A stretch of 64,000 nucleotides of DNA from Flavobacterium alkalisoli (GTDB lineage: Bacteria; Bacteroidota; Bacteroidia; Flavobacteriales; Flavobacteriaceae), in assembly GCF_008000935.1 (NCBI RefSeq), contig NZ_CP042831.1, positions 124,001 to 188,000 on the forward strand. Reading direction: 5' to 3'. The position numbers and the translations under genes were made by a program. Position 1 is the stretch's first letter. Every line of letters begins with the position of its first letter. Shown piece after piece: positions 24,413 through 31,848 of the stretch. Under the pieces are notes generated by a model, which was not told where the DNA came from, ran no database searches, and saw nothing but the letters and a program-made list of their open reading frames with translations.

Positions 24413-26107
24413 ATGCAGCTTTCAGAACAAGAAATCATCCGTAGAGAAAAACTGGACTCGCTGAGAAATCTCGGCATCAATCCGTATCCCGCTAATTTAT
24501 TTCCTGTAGACCACACGTCTAAACAGGTTAAGGAAGATTTTGCTGAAGGTAAGAAGGTTATTATTGCCGGACGTGTTATGTCATTCCGTATTCAGGGTAA
24601 AGCGTCTTTTGCCGAAATACAGGACAGCGAAGGCCGTGTACAGATTTACATTAACAGAGATGAAATTTGTCCTGATGAGGATAAAACAAAATACAACGAA
24701 GTATTTAAAAAACTTATTGACCTTGGTGACTTTATTGGTGTGGAAGGTACTCTTTTCACCACCCAGGTTGGAGAAAAATCAGTTCGTGTAAGCGATTTTA
24801 CTCTTTTAAGTAAAACACTTCGTCCGCTTCCTATGCCTAAAACAGATGCAGAAGGAAAAGTATACGACAGTTTTAGTGACCCTGAACTACGTTACCGTCA
24901 GCGTTATGTAGACTTAGTAGTTAACCCTCAGGTTAAAGAAGTTTTTGTTAAGAGAACGAAACTTTTTAACGCCATGAGAAGCTTCTTTAACGACAAAGGT
25001 TACTTTGAGGTAGAAACCCCTGTATTACAGCCTATACCGGGAGGAGCAGCGGCAAGACCGTTTGTAACGCACCATAACTCACTTGACATTCCTCTATACA
25101 TGAGGATAGCAAATGAGCTTTATCTTAAAAGGCTTATTGTAGGTGGTTTTGACGGTGTGTATGAGTTTAGTAAAAACTTCCGTAACGAAGGTATGGACAG
25201 AACACACAACCCTGAGTTTACGGCAATGGAGATATATGTAGCCTACAAAGACTACAACTGGATGATGGAGTTTACCGAAAACCTGCTTGAGCACTGTGCT
25301 ACAGCTGTTAACAGAACTACCAAAGCTACATTTGGCGAGCACACTGTAGATTTTAAGGCTCCTTATGCAAGAGTTACCATGACTGATGCCATTAAGCAGT
25401 TTACAGGCTTTGACATTACCGGAAAAACTGAGGCAGAGATTTTTGAAGCTGCTAAAGGTATGGGTATTGAGGTTGATGAGACTATGGGTAAAGGAAAACT
25501 TATCGACGAGATTTTTGGTGAGAAATGTGAGGGTAATTTTATACAGCCAACATTTATTACCGACTATCCAAAAGAGATGAGCCCACTTTGTAAAGAGCAC
25601 CGTGAAAATCCGGAACTTACAGAGCGTTTTGAGCTTATGGTTTGCGGTAAGGAAATAGCTAATGCTTATTCTGAACTTAACGACCCTATTGATCAGAGAG
25701 AGCGTTTTGAAGCTCAGCTTAAACTTGCCGAAAGAGGTGATGATGAGGCAGGTCAGTTTATAGACTTTGACTTCCTTAGAGCTTTAGAATATGGTATGCC
25801 TCCTACATCTGGACTTGGTATTGGTATGGACAGGTTAATAATGTTCTTAACCAACAACCAGTCTATTCAGGAAGTATTATTCTTCCCTCAAATGAGACCT
25901 GAGAAAAAAGGCCCTGAGCTTACGGAAGACGAAAAACTTATTGCAGAGATACTTAAAGCAAGTACATCATTAGCATTAGACGCCCTTAAAGCAGAAGCCG
26001 GACTAAGTGGTAAAAAATGGGATGCTGCAATGAAAGGCCTTTCAAAACACGGACTTGTAAGAGTGGTAGTAGAAGGCGACATAAAAACTGTAGAATTTAA
26101 AGGATAA
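24413..26107 (+). CDS. lysS: Lysyl-tRNA synthetase, class II
   Basis: 564 residues from MQLSEQEIIRREKL. It has an N-terminal OB-fold anticodon-binding domain (about 50-150) and a class II catalytic core: motif 1 around FFNDKGYFEVETPVL, motif 2 FRNEGMDRTHNPEFTAMEIY, and motif 3 GLGIGMDRLIMFL. After the usual end (LFFPQMRPE) there is an extra tail of about 60 residues with helices and KKWDAAMKGLSKHGLVRV, a DNA- or RNA-binding-like segment common in Bacteroidetes LysRS. The start is set by the promoter just upstream. It ends before a shared bidirectional terminator. Confidence 0.96.
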   Translation: MQLSEQEIIRREKLDSLRNLGINPYPANLFPVDHTSKQVKEDFAEGKKVIIAGRVMSFRIQGKASFAEIQDSEGRVQIYINRDEICPDEDKTKYNEVFKKLIDLGDFIGVEGTLFTTQVGEKSVRVSDFTLLSKTLRPLPMPKTDAEGKVYDSFSDPELRYRQRYVDLVVNPQVKEVFVKRTKLFNAMRSFFNDKGYFEVETPVLQPIPGGAAARPFVTHHNSLDIPLYMRIANELYLKRLIVGGFDGVYEFSKNFRNEGMDRTHNPEFTAMEIYVAYKDYNWMMEFTENLLEHCATAVNRTTKATFGEHTVDFKAPYARVTMTDAIKQFTGFDITGKTEAEIFEAAKGMGIEVDETMGKGKLIDEIFGEKCEGNFIQPTFITDYPKEMSPLCKEHRENPELTERFELMVCGKEIANAYSELNDPIDQRERFEAQLKLAERGDDEAGQFIDFDFLRALEYGMPPTSGLGIGMDRLIMFLTNNQSIQEVLFFPQMRPEKKGPELTEDEKLIAEILKASTSLALDALKAEAGLSGKKWDAAMKGLSKHGLVRVVVEGDIKTVEFKG

Positions 26108-26123
26108 CATCCTTAATATATAA

Positions 26124-26156
26124 ACAAAAAAAGGAACCGAAACGGTTCCTTTTTTT
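26124..26156. terminator. Bidirectional terminator between lysS and the barrel gene
   Basis: The inverted repeat AAAAAAGGAACCG/CGGTTCCTTTTTT has A/T tracts on both sides, so it can end the plus-strand lysS transcript and the minus-strand operon. It touches the stop codon of the latter. Confidence 0.9.
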
Positions 26157-27108
26157 ATAAGCTATAATTAAGATTTAAAGCCAATCGGTAATTTGCCTCC
26201 ACCTTACCTCCCGTAAGATTTTGGCTTATGGGCAACATTCCGTTTACTCCAAAAGAAAATTTATTCATACCAACCTCAAAGCCTGTCCTTCCAAAAAGGA
26301 TATCACCTTTAGTGTTGGGCACATCTTCACCATATTGCCTGTTTGAAGCATAAACTTCTCCTGCTAACCCTGCCTGAGGTACAAATGTAAACTTTTGCTT
26401 CTCTATCACATAAAAGAATGTACCTGCATAATTAAACTGGTCACCAAACTGATAGTTTTCATTGTTTTCGGTCTTGAAAACATAATTAACCATTGCATTA
26501 AAACCAAATTGTTTATGCTTCACAACATATTCTGTTGCAAGCAGGTAATCCCAACTACCGGTGCCCAACTGAAAGCTTGGGTTAACACTACCATTATTAG
26601 CACTGTTATAAGTACCTGTAGGTGCCTTAACCCCTGCACCTGCCTGGAGCGTATGCCTAAATGCTAACGTATCTGCTTTGGTTTGATAAACCGTATAAAG
26701 ACCCAAAACTGTTATATCACCTATACCGTCTATTGACTGTTTACCTGTAGAAGGCGTACGGCTATTAAAGTGATAAGGCACCAATGCCGAAACCTGTATA
26801 TTTTTTGCCACAGGTATCCTTGACCAGGCCTGTATAGTATTAAAGCTCTCGTCTATCCATGGTGAATTATTAAAAATACCTTCACGGCTCGAATAACTTT
26901 GGTACATGTATCGTATCCCTACAAAATTCTGATCGAGCATAGAACTGAATCCCATACCTCCCCCGCTGGCTGAACATCCGCAGGCATCACAAAAATCTTC
27001 AAATTCAAACATATACTGTCTGAAATTTGGATAAAGTGTATCTTTTTCTGTTTCGGCATAAAACATTTGCGACGCAAGAAGCAGTATGCCTATTATATAT
27101 TTTTTCAT
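26155..27108 (-). CDS. Outer-membrane beta-barrel protein of a copper-type locus
   Basis: 317 residues. Signal peptide (IIGILLLASQMFYA), then a Cys cluster FCDACGCSASGGGMGF (Cys40, 43, 45) and a barrel of about 12 strands ending with the typical LALNLNYSL. It resembles the transporter-like barrels that accompany MbnP/MbnH pairs. The Cys cluster at the mouth of the barrel could bind copper. It starts four bases after the di-haem peroxidase gene, so the two are translationally linked. The function is inferred from context only. Confidence 0.7.
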   Translation of the reverse strand: MKKYIIGILLLASQMFYAETEKDTLYPNFRQYMFEFEDFCDACGCSASGGGMGFSSMLDQNFVGIRYMYQSYSSREGIFNNSPWIDESFNTIQAWSRIPVAKNIQVSALVPYHFNSRTPSTGKQSIDGIGDITVLGLYTVYQTKADTLAFRHTLQAGAGVKAPTGTYNSANNGSVNPSFQLGTGSWDYLLATEYVVKHKQFGFNAMVNYVFKTENNENYQFGDQFNYAGTFFYVIEKQKFTFVPQAGLAGEVYASNRQYGEDVPNTKGDILFGRTGFEVGMNKFSFGVNGMLPISQNLTGGKVEANYRLALNLNYSL

Positions 27109-27112
27109 TTAA

Positions 27113-28156
27113 TTATGTTTGATAATAAAACATCGGGTTATTTATATACTCCTCATCGGTAAGTGTTTTTAGGAACGCTATAAGCGCCTCCTTTTCTTCC
27201 TGAGTGAGCGGAATACCCAACCCCCCTTCATGCTTAAGTTCCTCATCCAGTGTATCCGAATCTACCAAACCGTGTGAGTAAAAATTGAGTACCGACTGTA
27301 ACGAACCGAAACGCCCGTCGTGCATATAAGGCGCAGTAAGCTCCACATTGCGAAGGCTTGGCACTTTAAACTTATACTTGTCGGAAGCAAAACCCGTTAC
27401 CGTTTCCCTCCCTAGATCGTTTAGGTTAGGATTAGGAGGTAAGCCGTTATTGCGAAAAGCACTATCTGTAAACAAATCAGTTTTATGGCAAACAGCACAA
27501 TTTTGCTGAAACAGTTCCATACCATATTGTTCCTGCTGGCTAAAATTACCTCCCGGCTCATTTCTTACATGCTTATCATAACGGGAATTTGCCGAAACCA
27601 TCATCGTCATAAACTGCCCCAGGGCTTTTAGCACATTTCCGGACGACACCTCACCATTATCAAAAGCAACTCCAAAAAGCCTTACATATTCTGGGTCCTG
27701 CTTTAGCTTCAAAACAATATTTTCAAGTGTTTCATTCATCTCAACAGGGTTATGTATAGGCGCTATGGAAAGCATTTCTATACTGTTTGAAGCTCCGTCA
27801 TAGAAATACTCACTCTGAAAAGCCATATTTTGAACAGCCGGAGCATTACGCACCCCTACCAAGTCATTTATACCGTGACTAAAGTCATGTCCATGATGTG
27901 TAAAAGCCGAAGCCTGCTCATGGCAAAAAGAACAGGAAATGGTATTATCTGCAGATAGTCTTCCGTCATAAAACAGTTTCCTGCCCAGTTCAAATCCTTT
28001 TTGGGTTGGCCAGTTATGTTGTATATCCTGAGCCAAAGCAGGAAAATTTGCAGGAACCTGAAAATCCAAAGGCTCATTTATCTCTGTATACTCCTCTTCT
28101 TTAGAGCAAGATATAAAAAGACAGGCAAACGACAGTATTAAAATAATTGTCCTCAT
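27113..28156 (-). CDS. Di-haem cytochrome c peroxidase/MauG family, MbnH-like
   Basis: A 347-residue lipoprotein (signal FACLFISC). It has two c-type haem sites, CSFCH (75-79) and CAVCH (about 220), with the family context GRKLFYDGRLSADNTISC, VGVRNAPAVQNMAF and APYMHDGRFGSLQSVL. The last contains the signature MHDGRF. Related proteins reduce peroxide or, as MbnH does on MbnP, oxidise a Trp of a partner. The gene next upstream encodes an MbnP-like protein, which supports the second role. The Met or His axial ligand cannot be fixed by eye. It is in one transcript with its neighbours. Confidence 0.85.
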   Translation of the reverse strand: MRTIILILSFACLFISCSKEEEYTEINEPLDFQVPANFPALAQDIQHNWPTQKGFELGRKLFYDGRLSADNTISCSFCHEQASAFTHHGHDFSHGINDLVGVRNAPAVQNMAFQSEYFYDGASNSIEMLSIAPIHNPVEMNETLENIVLKLKQDPEYVRLFGVAFDNGEVSSGNVLKALGQFMTMMVSANSRYDKHVRNEPGGNFSQQEQYGMELFQQNCAVCHKTDLFTDSAFRNNGLPPNPNLNDLGRETVTGFASDKYKFKVPSLRNVELTAPYMHDGRFGSLQSVLNFYSHGLVDSDTLDEELKHEGGLGIPLTQEEKEALIAFLKTLTDEEYINNPMFYYQT

Positions 28157-28203
28157 AGTAAAGAGATTAAGCCCTACAATATTATATAGCAGGGCATTAT
28201 CAA

Positions 28204-29031
28204 TTATTCCCTGTGACCTGTATGACTACCGTTATGCACGTGATCTACAGTAAACATCTGTAAAGTGTTTTCTGCAATACTTATAAGGTTTTCTCCGCCC
28301 ATTATAGCACTACCTGTTTGTGCCTCATTTATATTGTCTGCCAGTTTGATTTTATTAGTACCGTCTAATATTACATTAGCATCAGTTTTTAGATGTATGT
28401 TAGGCATTTCATCTTCCCTTACCCTAGCGGTAGTAGGCAGGATTAAAGTAACTTCCCTGTAATTATCGGTAGCTGAGTTACTCCCTTGGTGTACCTGAAA
28501 TGTTTTTTCGCCCTCAACAGCCGATGAAGTATAAGTTCCTTCAAAGTTGATGAAACGATACCCTGTAGACCATGTCCAGGTAAGGTTATGTTGTACAGCT
28601 AAATCCCAAAAACTTTGCTGCTCGCTTTCTCCCTGTAAATAACGTTGTTGGTCTACCCCTATTCCAAATTTTACTTTAGTGTAATCTCCGGCAGGAACTC
28701 CTTCCAAATGAACCGTTAGCAAATCGCCTTCTTCACTAATAACAAAATAACTTTCTTCTTTAGGATAAGTAAACTCAGTACCGTCTTCTTTTATAAGCAC
28801 AAAGTTGCTTACTATATAATTTAAACGGTTAATAGTAAGGCTCTCATTATTAGAGTTAGTGTAAGTATTACCCAAAATAAGTGCATCTCCTGCAACACCA
28901 TTATCAAAGTAAAGCTCAACATCTCCGGTTGTACCTTCAACAACAGAAGAAGAGTCGTCATCATTAGAGCATGAAACAAAAAGAGCAGTAAGTGCCAATA
29001 CGACTATTGTATTTTTTAACTGAAATTTCAT
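28204..29031 (-). CDS. MbnP-like copper-binding lipoprotein
   Basis: 275 residues. Lipoprotein signal ending VSC, then SNDDDSSS, an acidic surface-export-like stretch. The core fits the MbnP family (TIGR04052-like): strands VELYFDNGVAGDALILG and NRLNYIVSNFVLI, and the hallmark LTWTWSTGYRFINFEG (Trp152, Trp154; also Trp142). In the best-studied MbnP a Trp is converted by MbnH to kynurenine, which binds copper. The C-terminal tail DHVHNGSHTGHRE is His-rich and could add metal ligands. The adjacent MbnH-like gene (47 bases downstream) makes this assignment strong. Confidence 0.85.
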   Translation of the reverse strand: MKFQLKNTIVVLALTALFVSCSNDDDSSSVVEGTTGDVELYFDNGVAGDALILGNTYTNSNNESLTINRLNYIVSNFVLIKEDGTEFTYPKEESYFVISEEGDLLTVHLEGVPAGDYTKVKFGIGVDQQRYLQGESEQQSFWDLAVQHNLTWTWSTGYRFINFEGTYTSSAVEGEKTFQVHQGSNSATDNYREVTLILPTTARVREDEMPNIHLKTDANVILDGTNKIKLADNINEAQTGSAIMGGENLISIAENTLQMFTVDHVHNGSHTGHRE

Positions 29032-29160
29032 CGTGTTTATTTATTAAGATTATATATGTTTCTCCGCACATAAAATTAATTATGCGCACAAGTGTAACCC
29101 GTAGCCACTAAAAAAGCAGTTACAGATATTTATGGCAGTACAACACTACCGGATAAAGTC

Positions 29161-29532
29161 TTAAGAAATAAATGCGGGCGGATGAAATACTGTAGAGTAA
29201 CCGGCATAAACATACAGGTTAGTATATAAAACCGACACTTCTTTTCTTGTATTTATATATAAAGGGGTAAATTCAAATTCTAATGAAGACTGACAGAATA
29301 AAACCTCTGTTTCCTGATGTGAATTTTTCTTTTGTGATACCGGTTTTTCATCTTCAGCTGCTTTGGCAAGCTCTTTCATAAGGTGACACTTACCGTTACA
29401 GTGAAGTTCAGGTTTTGCTTTATTTTCACAAAGCTCTTTTGCGATATAATCATATTTAATAAGGTATTCTGCAACCGGCATTAACGGCTTAAACAGCATT
29501 ACTAAACAACATATGATTATTAGTTTTTTCAC
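29161..29532 (-). CDS. Small exported protein with CNGKCH motif, start of the copper-type locus
   Basis: 123 residues, starting with GTG at 29532. An in-frame extension to 29745 would run into the divergent gene and contains no family-like sequence. The N-terminus KKLIIICCLVMLFKPLMPV is a signal or anchor. The body has YDYIAKELCENKAKPELHC then NGKCHLMKELAK, a CxxxCH arrangement (Cys45, 49, His50) plus Cys35. Such proteins occur in Flavobacteria before metal-handling genes, but I cannot name a family. Its position, 129 bases upstream of the MbnP-like gene, suggests a role in copper handling. A TACTTTTG box lies only four bases before the GTG. Confidence 0.65.
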   Translation of the reverse strand: MKKLIIICCLVMLFKPLMPVAEYLIKYDYIAKELCENKAKPELHCNGKCHLMKELAKAAEDEKPVSQKKNSHQETEVLFCQSSLEFEFTPLYINTRKEVSVLYTNLYVYAGYSTVFHPPAFIS

Positions 29533-29536
29533 AGTG

Positions 29537-29544
29537 CAAAAGTA
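29537..29544 (-). promoter_or_regulatory. Promoter -7 element abutting the GTG start
   Basis: The minus strand reads TACTTTTG four bases before the GTG codon, so transcription would begin at or beside the start codon. The -33 element is not clear. Confidence 0.4.
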
Positions 29545-29641
29545 CTGCCCAAATGCTATATAAAAAATTTTTTCTCTCCATTTTAAACTTTTTCTTTTTA
29601 AAAATGTCTTAATGGTATATAACTTAAAAAAAAATAAGATT

Positions 29642-30073
29642 ATGAAAACATGGATTTTAACAGCAGTATTACTGGTTGGCTTTAATGTATTTGCACAACA
29701 CGGAGGAAGAGGAGACAGACAAAGACTTACTGCCGAACAGCGCACCGAACTTCAGGTTAAGAAACTTACTCTTGAGCTTGATTTGAACGACAGTCAAAAA
29801 GCCAATGTACAGAAACTGTTTTTAGACAAAAATAAAAAAGTCGAAACCGCAATGGCGGAGCACAAGCAAAACAGAGAAGCAGGACAAAAGCTTACTGATG
29901 ACCAGAAATTTGAAATGAAAAGCAAAATGCTGGATGAGGAGATTACAACAAAAGCAGAAATGAAAAAAATACTTACCAAAGATCAGTACGAAAAATGGGA
30001 AAAAATGAGAGCTGAAAAAAAGAATAAGTTTGAAAAAAGAAGTAAAAAATATCAAAAAGGCAATAAGAGATAA
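29642..30073 (+). CDS. Spy/CpxP-like small exported protein
   Basis: 143 residues from MKTWILTAVLLVGFNVFA (signal peptide), then a very charged helical protein: QRLTAEQRTELQVKKLTLEL, the LTDDQKFEMKSKMLDEE repeat-like turn and LTKDQYEKWEKMRAEKK. The LTxxQ turns and Met/Lys-rich helices are like the Spy/CpxP family of periplasmic chaperones or metal sensors. The ATG ten codons upstream (29612) lacks signal-peptide logic. It is divergent from the copper-type locus, so a shared stress or metal response is possible. Confidence 0.7.
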   Translation: MKTWILTAVLLVGFNVFAQHGGRGDRQRLTAEQRTELQVKKLTLELDLNDSQKANVQKLFLDKNKKVETAMAEHKQNREAGQKLTDDQKFEMKSKMLDEEITTKAEMKKILTKDQYEKWEKMRAEKKNKFEKRSKKYQKGNKR

Positions 30074-30092
30074 TTTTTTTTCTGTTAAAGTT

Positions 30093-30122
30093 TTGTGTTG
30101 TTTTATAAATTAATTAGATTTG
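30093..30122 (+). promoter_or_regulatory. Promoter of the small exported protein gene at 30157
   Basis: TTG (30093-30095), 19 bases, then TAGATTTG (30115-30122): a full consensus match, 34 bases before the ATG. Confidence 0.8.
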
Positions 30123-30156
30123 GCGTACATAACACTAAACAAAAACCAGTTAAATC

Positions 30157-30510
30157 ATGAAAAAAATAATTGCTTTATTCGTTATCATGCTTGCTTTTAG
30201 CGTGAACGCTACTGCTCAGCAGAAAGCTGCTTCTAACCAGGCAGTTGCTCAGCAACAGGAAAATTACAAAGTTGCCGCTCAAAAAGATTTAAAGGCACTT
30301 AAAGAAGTTGTAGAACTTGAAGGTACTCAGGAAGAAGCTTTTATGAACCTGTTTACTAACAAACACCAATTGCTTGCAATGGATTTAAGCCAGGAGCGTA
30401 AAGACATTTTAGCTCAGTCTATTGAAAGTAAACTAACTTCTACATTAACTCCGGAGCAAAACAAAAAACTTGCTACAGCACCGGGCTTACTAAAAGTTTT
30501 AAGTCACTAA
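30157..30510 (+). CDS. Small exported helical protein, function unknown
   Basis: 117 residues. A signal peptide (IIALFVIMLAFSVNATAQ) is followed by a Gln- and Ala-rich helix (QKAASNQAVAQQQ) and LKALKEVVELEGTQEEAFMNLFTNKHQLL, then LTPEQNKKLATAPGLLKVL. The LTPEQ turn again recalls Spy-like helical hairpins, but it is shorter than Spy. I do not recognise a named family. It has its own promoter and a strong terminator, and is 83 bases after the Spy-like gene. Confidence 0.75.
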   Translation: MKKIIALFVIMLAFSVNATAQQKAASNQAVAQQQENYKVAAQKDLKALKEVVELEGTQEEAFMNLFTNKHQLLAMDLSQERKDILAQSIESKLTSTLTPEQNKKLATAPGLLKVLSH

Positions 30511-30528
30511 TATTATAAAATATAATAT

Positions 30529-30560
30529 TAAAAAAAGCTCCCTTAAAGGGAGCTTTTTTA
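30529..30560. terminator. Bidirectional terminator between the small exported protein gene and hemL
   Basis: The inverted repeat AAAAAAGCTCCC/GGGAGCTTTTTT with a short loop serves the plus-strand gene ending at 30510 and the minus-strand hemL ending at 30562. Confidence 0.9.
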
Positions 30561-30561
30561 T

Positions 30562-31848
30562 TTATAGATCTTTTGCTACTTTTCCTATCGAATTTATTGT
30601 AAAGTCCAGATCCTCATAAGAAAGAGCATCTGTAATAAACCAGGTTTCATAAGCCGAAGGCGCTATATAAATCCCTTCTTTAAGCAAACCGTGGAAAAAC
30701 TTCTTAAAGGTATCATTATCCCCGTTTGAAGCTGTTTTAAAATCGGTTACCGGATTAGCATCAAAATGTACCGAAATCATAGAACCTCTTCTATTGATAG
30801 TATAGTCTAAGCCTGCTTCAGTCAGCTTCTCACGAATTCCTTTTTCAAGATAAGCTGTTTTTTCTTCAAGTCTTTTAAACACATCAGTATCATCATTTAA
30901 AGCTTTAAGCATTTCCAGACCTGCTGCCATTGCTAACGGGTTACCCGAAAGTGTACCGGCCTGATAAACCGGACCTACAGGTGCCAAATAATTCATTATT
31001 TCGTTTCTTGCAGCAAAAGCACCTACCGGAAGACCTCCTCCAATTACTTTACCAAAAGCAACAATATCGGCTTTGATATCAAAAAGCTCCTGAGCACCAC
31101 CTTTAGCAAGACGGAAACCTGTCATAACCTCATCAAATATCAATAGTGAGCCATTAGCATCACAAACCTCTCTTAATCCCTGTAAAAAACCTTCGGCAGG
31201 AGGTATACATCCCATGTTACCCGCAACAGGCTCTATTATTATAGCAGCTATCTGGTCTTTATTTGCTTCAAATAAATCCTTTACATTCTGTAAATCATTG
31301 TAGGTAGCAAGCAGAGTATCTTTTGCCGTACCCTGAGTTACACCCGGGCTGTTAGGCGAACCGAAAGTTACTGCACCACTACCCGCCTGTATAAGAAAAG
31401 AATCGGAATGACCATGATAGCATCCTGCAAACTTTATAATCTTATCGCGTCCAGTATATCCTCTTGCAAGTCGTATTGCACTCATACAGGCCTCTGTACC
31501 CGAGTTTACAAAACGTATTTTATCTATATTAGGAACCATGCTTACCGCAAGTGCAGCAATTTCTGTTTCCAATTGTGTAGGCATACCAAAAGAGGTACCT
31601 TTTTTAGCTTTCTCAATAACAGCATTTACAACGGGTTCATAGGCATGGCCCAAAATCATAGGCCCCCATGAGTTAATATAATCTATCAGCCTGTTACCGT
31701 CTTCATCATATAAGTATGCTCCTTTTGCCTCTTTTACAAATATTGGAGTACCTCCTACCGATTTAAATGCACGAACGGGCGAATTCACACCGCCCGGAAT
31801 AACTTTTTCAGCTTCAGCAAAAAGCTGGCTGCTTCTTTGATATAACAT
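30562..31848 (-). CDS. hemL: Glutamate-1-semialdehyde 2,1-aminomutase
   Basis: A 428-residue PLP enzyme converting glutamate-1-semialdehyde to 5-aminolevulinate for haem. Signatures: [16 protein letters not shown] near the N-terminus, [33 protein letters not shown], and [18 protein letters not shown] with the PLP Lys. Full length. It is last of a compact minus-strand run: it starts four bases after the stop of the glucosaminidase gene. Confidence 0.96.

Follow-up and report, generated by a model that had tools for sequence, protein, structure and literature searches.

A small Pro-Pro-ending open reading frame as putative copper-responsive leader of an MbnP/MbnH-like operon in Flavobacterium alkalisoli

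What is a small, cysteine-containing open reading frame (ORF) doing at the head of an operon for an MbnP/MbnH-like protein pair? The question is raised by a locus in a 64,000-nucleotide stretch of the Flavobacterium alkalisoli genome (contig NZ_CP042831.1, positions 124,001 to 188,000 of the forward strand; hereafter the window, with coordinates counted from its first letter), where four ORFs run on the minus strand in the order small ORF, MbnP, MbnH-like protein and outer-membrane barrel. An earlier note on this DNA had described these four ORFs, their common strand and their motifs correctly, and had taken the small gene for an exported protein serving, with the other three, in copper acquisition or copper safety at the surface. 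We think it unlikely that the small gene makes a working exported protein. A Cys motif set at a fixed distance from a C-terminal Pro-Pro, the copper-type genes that come next and an RNA stem linking its stop region to the next gene's leader point instead to a cis-acting leader ORF, of the kind represented by CutF and CruR. We consider it probable that the four genes make up a copper-homeostasis operon whose translation is controlled by the first of them.

The small ORF (29161..29532, minus strand) starts with GTG and encodes 123 residues, with a hydrophobic N terminus, a first cysteine at position 35, a CNGKC motif at residues 45-49 (within CNGKCH) and the C-terminal sequence FHPPAFIS. Searches up to E 10 returned neither a Pfam family for the protein nor a paralogue in the same genome. 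Its relatives form a family present in 85 of 296 genomes across the phylum Bacteroidota, which we studied in 100 fetched loci and the window; these yielded 106 ORFs and cover the neighbourhoods of 100 of the 118 matches, some of which share one locus (fetching was incomplete for one fragment and for 12 of the 85 unlinked matches). In the alignment of the 106 ORFs six columns are invariant, namely Cys, Cys, Gly, Cys, Pro and Pro. The first four belong to the stretch from C35 to C49 (C-x9-C-x-G-x-C; 29386..29430, minus strand), a proposed metal site kept in 106 of 106 relatives, and the last two to the Pro-Pro codons (29176..29181, minus strand), a proposed arrest point 18 nt upstream of the stop codon. 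All 106 small ORFs carry Pro-Pro in their last 20 residues (105 of them in the last 15), against 13 of 858 other genes at the same loci, or 8 of 175 when only other genes of at most 160 residues are counted. A model of the first 57 residues alone recovers the 106 ORFs, all with the Pro-Pro end, and outside Flavobacteriaceae (40 loci) 42 of 42 ORFs end in this way. The distance from CxxxC to Pro-Pro is 63-73 residues (median 67.5), two to five residues follow Pro-Pro in 97 of the 106, and in 107 of 118 cases Pro-Pro lies 12-18 nt before the stop codon.

Every small ORF has a same-strand gene within 700 nt downstream; the ORF starts being longest-frame calls, such gene gaps are lower bounds. This next gene encodes a TonB receptor in 46 of the 106 cases, MbnP in 21, a YtkA-like protein in 17, a barrel in 15 and something else in 7, the cluster labels being taken from a Pfam scan of few members (three for the TonB receptors, two for the YtkA-like proteins, one for PepSY_TM). 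Outside Flavobacteriaceae, TonB receptors (Plug, 17/39) and MbnP (10/39) again account for most next genes. PepSY_TM follows the TonB receptor in nine operons with a leader, and cytochrome bd genes occur in two, directly after the ORF in one (L083) and behind a barrel and a small lipoprotein in the other (L072), which hints at a copper-starvation response; for each of these two families the Pfam scan covered one member. A real exported copper-binding chaperone or donor for MbnP, MbnH and the barrel, as the small protein might otherwise be, would agree with the conserved Cys motif, the hydrophobic N terminus and the conservation of the partner genes. Against it, the sequence from the Cys motif to the tail is poorly conserved while its length and Pro-Pro are fixed, the small ORF also precedes unrelated gene types, and the stem described below covers its stop codon; we regard a chaperone or donor role as quite improbable.

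The stem joins the end of the small ORF to the leader of mbnP. Its 5' arm (TTTATTTCTTAAGA; 29159..29172, minus strand) holds the codons for FIS, the stop codon and two more nucleotides, and its 3' arm (TCTTAATAAATAAA; 29036..29049, minus strand) ends 4 nt before the mbnP start codon, with 13 of 14 positions pairing (29172-29159 with 29049-29036). In the predicted fold of this region (z -3.13) the mbnP AUG is covered as well, by an outer helix (29181-29188 with 29025-29032). The stop-codon region of leader ORFs is paired above expectation: when the stop region was set against the 43 nt that lead up to the next start, the Flavobacteriaceae loci gave 8.16 expected pairs compared with 3.12 for shuffled intergenics (n=94, p 4e-12), and control same-strand gene pairs gave 2.47 compared with 2.81 (n=232). 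When the arms were re-paired among loci at random, the own arms proved better in every class (z -8.2 for MbnP, n=21; -6.3 for TonB-dependent receptors, n=40; -4.6 for the barrel, n=15; -4.1 for YtkA, n=15), and the true energy was reached by none of 300 permutations per class, except for one of 300 in the YtkA-like class. A set of named MbnP loci gave z -7.1 (n=24, with L146 counted twice, as two pieces of a broken gene, and L139, whose gap is 927 nt, left out), and the loci outside Flavobacteriaceae z -5.9 (controls -0.1). Relative to shuffled 3' arms the true arms gained 2.76 kcal/mol (a difference of -2.76), compared with 0.47 (-0.47) in controls (p 1e-10). Since Pro-Pro stands 12-18 nt before the stop codon, an arrested ribosome would cover the 5' arm.

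Several observations weigh against a leader ORF that acts through this stem. Outside Flavobacteriaceae the pair test is not significant (5.49 vs 2.99, n=31, p 0.13), at least four pairs are found in 11 of 31 loci as compared with 17 of 47 controls, and the shuffled-arm test gives p 0.014 but p 0.074 when set against controls. Within Flavobacteriaceae the controls themselves show a small own-arm excess (z -2.2), and the stem windows were set after folds of some of the same loci had been viewed. The overall folding energy of leader intergenics is no different from that of other intergenics (-1.99 vs -1.94), and generic intergenic RNA stability was rejected as the signal. The idea that the Pro-Pro codons pair with downstream RNA was likewise rejected, the result being opposite to it: they pair less than shuffled sequence does (0.059 vs 0.153). 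A further signal that was tried, runs of at least six T, shows no excess in the intergenics (33/87 vs 79/206 in controls). As to the ORF itself, the loci were gathered with a model that covers the tail, the Pro-Pro context in the window is HPP and not RAPP, and 40 of the 106 small ORFs have another gene on their strand less than 150 nt upstream, so that the leader ORF is not always visibly first.

Two relatives in kind are already described. According to passages of the CutF paper (PMC9973294), CutF of Rhodobacter capsulatus and the CutF-like proteins have fewer than 150 residues, a CxxxC motif, Pro-Pro near the C terminus, a same-strand downstream gene and an RNA stem that masks its start. 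Against the rules worded there (<150 residues, Pro-Pro in the last 15, a same-strand gene within 1000 nt), the window offers 123 residues, FHPPAFIS and a gap of 129 nt, with a hydrophobic N terminus where the rules ask for a Sec signal peptide, and a stem masking the downstream start is likewise found for Flavobacteriaceae. The paper also counts such proteins among Bacteroidota, at 40% with normalisation and 19% without it, and the class was thus already known there in outline; the main text of the paper makes no mention of MbnP. The small-ORF family differs from CutF in the distance from CxxxC to Pro-Pro (about 67 residues, 45 in CutF), in a third invariant Cys, in a stem whose 5' arm holds the ORF's own stop codon, and in the genes downstream, which are MbnP/MbnH/barrel, TonB receptors or YtkA-like genes here and a multicopper oxidase in CutF.

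CutF also raises the possibility of the opposite polarity, namely that copper prolongs the arrest and turns MbnP, MbnH and the barrel on as a protection against excess copper. In CutF, too, a stem masks the start of the gene downstream (PMC9973294), and CxxxC is common to CutF and the small-ORF family. The TonB receptors with PepSY_TM and the cytochrome bd genes (one locus directly, one behind a barrel) fit copper scarcity instead, and in methanotrophs copper lowers the expression of the related genes for CorA/CorB and MopE, according to a further paper (PMC3621798); we hold the CutF polarity to be possible and rather doubtful.

CruR (DUF2946) of Bordetella pertussis is the second relative. 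As set out in portions of the CruR paper (PMC9426467), it is a small ORF ahead of copper-type operons, with a Cys motif and a C-terminal Pro-Pro at fixed spacing; a TonB receptor and PepSY_TM lie downstream, the arrangement cruR-bfrG-bp2921 resembling our nine operons with PepSY_TM after the TonB receptor, and MbnPH-like genes occur in some operons with DUF2946 genes, mostly in Proteobacteria. Unlike CruR, the small protein has no DUF2946 match (nor did a PF11162 search find one elsewhere in the genome), carries CxGxC where CruR has CXXC, and belongs to a family with HPP, KPP, RPP or TPP at 63-73 residues where CruR has RAPP at 45. A stem is present here instead of, or besides, Rho. The leader ORF could work by Rho-dependent transcription termination as CruR does, the stem being secondary; that CruR heads TonB-receptor/PepSY_TM operons and that DUF2946 operons include MbnPH-like genes (PMC9426467, same portions) speaks for this, but a stem over the leader of the next start fits translation control, and we judge termination by Rho unlikely.

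For translational control by the leader ORF, the mechanism that we infer runs as follows. Translation of the small ORF would yield a nascent chain bound for export, in which the three invariant cysteines (C-x9-C-x-G-x-C) could bind Cu(I). About 68 residues past the Cys motif the ribosome would reach Pro-Pro, 12-18 nt before the stop codon, and on arrest its leading edge would sit on the 5' arm of the stem, that is, on the last codons and the stop codon. With this arm occupied the mbnP leader would stay open, allowing translation of MbnP and, along with it, of MbnH and the barrel; were the ORF finished quickly, the ribosome would be gone, the stem would close and the operon would be off. The most likely polarity is that of CruR, scarce copper leading to arrest and expression and copper to release, a combination of CruR polarity and CutF-type output chosen on account of the downstream neighbour genes. 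As between acquisition and safety, the other operons headed by this leader, with a TonB receptor and PepSY_TM or with cytochrome bd genes, would rather suggest acquisition or a response to starvation.

The products of the next two genes are MbnP/MbnH-like, as the earlier note had recognised from their motifs. The MbnP-family lipoprotein (28204..29031, minus strand; 275 residues) contains LTWTWSTGYRF, with WTW at 152-154, ends in the tail HVHNGSHTGHRE and matches Pfam PF20243 with 156.5 bits (cut-off 27). The MbnH-like di-haem lipoprotein (27113..28156, minus strand; 347 residues), with CSFCH and CAVCH, matches CCP_MauG (PF03150) with 172.3 bits (cut-off 25.6), and two CxxCH motifs are kept in 55 of 57 gathered di-haem homologues. 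The complete genome, one contig of 3.99 Mb, holds one PF20243 and three PF03150 proteins; the two further CCP_MauG proteins lie at G000:C1:2006183-2006620 and 2038738-2039181, in frames of 624 and 657 aa. Neither a single sequence nor a close-family profile found a relative of MbnP in the PDB, and a wider profile finds 7l6g. The WxW is invariant in 28 of 28 close MbnP relatives and in 15 of 15 diverse members of a further set (A5), and it aligns with that of 7l6g. In MbnP of Methylosinus trichosporium OB3b the first Trp of WxW becomes kynurenine; here MbnH would oxidise the corresponding Trp and so build a copper site. Residue 119 of the MbnH-like protein, aligned with the inter-haem Trp region of 6e1c (MbnH of OB3b), is Tyr, and among the 57 homologues this position is Trp in 31 and Tyr in 25.

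The pair is set apart from MbnP/MbnH of OB3b (7l6g, 6e1c) by its scores below the equivalog cut-offs, 39.1 bits for TIGR04052 (curated cut-off 140) and 207.4 bits for TIGR04039 (362.85), by the His-rich C-terminal tail of its MbnP and by its linkage to a Cys-motif barrel and a leader ORF in a genome that holds no MbnB-family gene: a PF05114 profile search of the complete genome gave no match, which bears out the earlier note on the lack of methanobactin genes. That MbnP and MbnH serve another metal or an oxidative modification in which copper has no part would agree with these NCBIfam scores and with the Leu that the window, like 16 of the 28 close relatives, has at the place of the Met adjoining WxW in 7l6g. 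Set against this, the WxW and a His aligned with 7l6g are both kept and the gene neighbours are of copper type, and we find a function without copper very improbable.

The last gene (26155..27108, minus strand; 317 residues, with CDACGCS near the N terminus) has no Pfam family above cut-off. Its structure model finds as best folds the outer-membrane channels FapF and COG4313 (5o67, E 1.5e-11; 4rl8, E 2.7e-9), from which it differs by an identity of 12-15% and by its N-terminal CDACGC motif. The earlier note had seen a Cys-rich outer-membrane barrel as part of a system at the surface. The barrel is supported and its motif is conserved (C..C.C in 21 of 21 MbnP-linked barrels), but in the model the motif sits in an N-terminal stretch ahead of the first strand (pLDDT <50 there), which in an outer-membrane barrel would place it on the periplasmic side and not at the surface. 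The barrel may pass copper or a copper complex across the outer membrane.

That the four genes form a conserved unit, which the earlier note had left to a search for their order in relatives, was borne out. In a survey of 149 Flavobacteriaceae genomes, sampled at about one per genus, 90 genomes have a match to the small protein, 71 to MbnP and 30 to the barrel, 22 of these barrel matches being strong (>160 bits); the MbnH query matches in 106, a count that takes in other di-haem peroxidases. The order small ORF-MbnP-MbnH-barrel on one strand occurs in 21 of the 149, the genome of the window included, and is conserved beyond chance; 21 of the 22 strong barrel matches lie within it, and the remaining one (G015) is on a contig beside a partial MbnH. 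Each of the 24 named flavobacterial loci retrieved by way of MbnP (L125-L148) holds all four genes; two of them are irregular, L139 in having its small gene 927 nt upstream of MbnP and L146 in having its small ORF in two pieces (broken or misread), with MbnP, MbnH and barrel present. The scan also gave four loci at a greater distance (L149-L152), which hold MbnP-MbnH and neither of the other two genes. In the surveyed genomes, a second class is made up of 50 further MbnP-MbnH pairs that lack both the small ORF and the barrel within 8 kb, and in seven pairs the small ORF stands ahead of two intervening genes. A second small ORF precedes the four-gene order in 3 of the 21 genomes; such tandem small ORFs (L027, L029, L032) flank a lipoprotein of about 145 residues, ahead of MbnP-MbnH-barrel.

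The sequence TAnnTTTG is the Bacteroidota -7 promoter consensus, and an element of this type (TACTTTTG; 29537..29544, minus strand) ends 4 nt before the GTG, in agreement with the start proposed earlier. It is common among relatives: the named set has it in 24 of its 29 upstream regions and the wider set in 105 of 134 (9.6% in shuffles). For 56 of 102 elements just 4-5 nt separate the end from the start codon, and the mRNA of the leader ORF may therefore be nearly leaderless. A GGTTTAA box, some 58 nt ahead of the small ORF, was rejected as a family feature: it accompanies 12 of the 28 ORFs of the named set and 1 of the 106 of the other set, and was taken as local, perhaps a part of the promoter of the divergent neighbour. 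This neighbour (29612-30073, plus strand) is a small exported DUF4890-like protein (28 bits, cut-off 29.7), which adjoins the small ORF in 15 of the 24 named loci too. At the other end of the operon, a hairpin with a T run resembling an intrinsic terminator (26124..26158, minus strand) overlaps the end of the barrel gene. An Rfam search of 26000-30600 gave 11 matches up to E 1, all under the gathering score and rejected.

Copper regulation in Bacteroidota is poorly known, and the new point here is the leader ORF and stem of an MbnP/MbnH-like operon; we found no paper on this operon link and stem in the open-licence literature, a search whose scope was papers apart from their supplements. In the portions consulted of a 2025 EMBO J survey of RAPP/RGPP leader ORFs (PMC12992588), the copper-linked ones are missing from Bacteroidota, a gap that the small-ORF family would fill, with a different arrest motif. 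More broadly, and tentatively, arrest ORFs that respond to copper (Cys-x9-Cys-x-Gly-x-Cys ... Pro-Pro) may be a wide class in Bacteroidota, combining CruR sensor logic with CutF-type output and keeping the leader's stop codon inside the start-hiding stem. Kynurenine-type copper proteins and their Cys-motif pore, TonB copper receptors accompanied by PepSY_TM, lipoproteins of the YtkA type and even cytochrome bd would then answer to one leader design and form a copper-starvation regulon in which no dedicated transcription factor takes part. A leader of this kind would give a simple switch that lends itself to testing, would connect the chemistry of MbnP/MbnH with a pore and a leader in a genus that is easy to work with, and would offer a route to copper operons in genomes.

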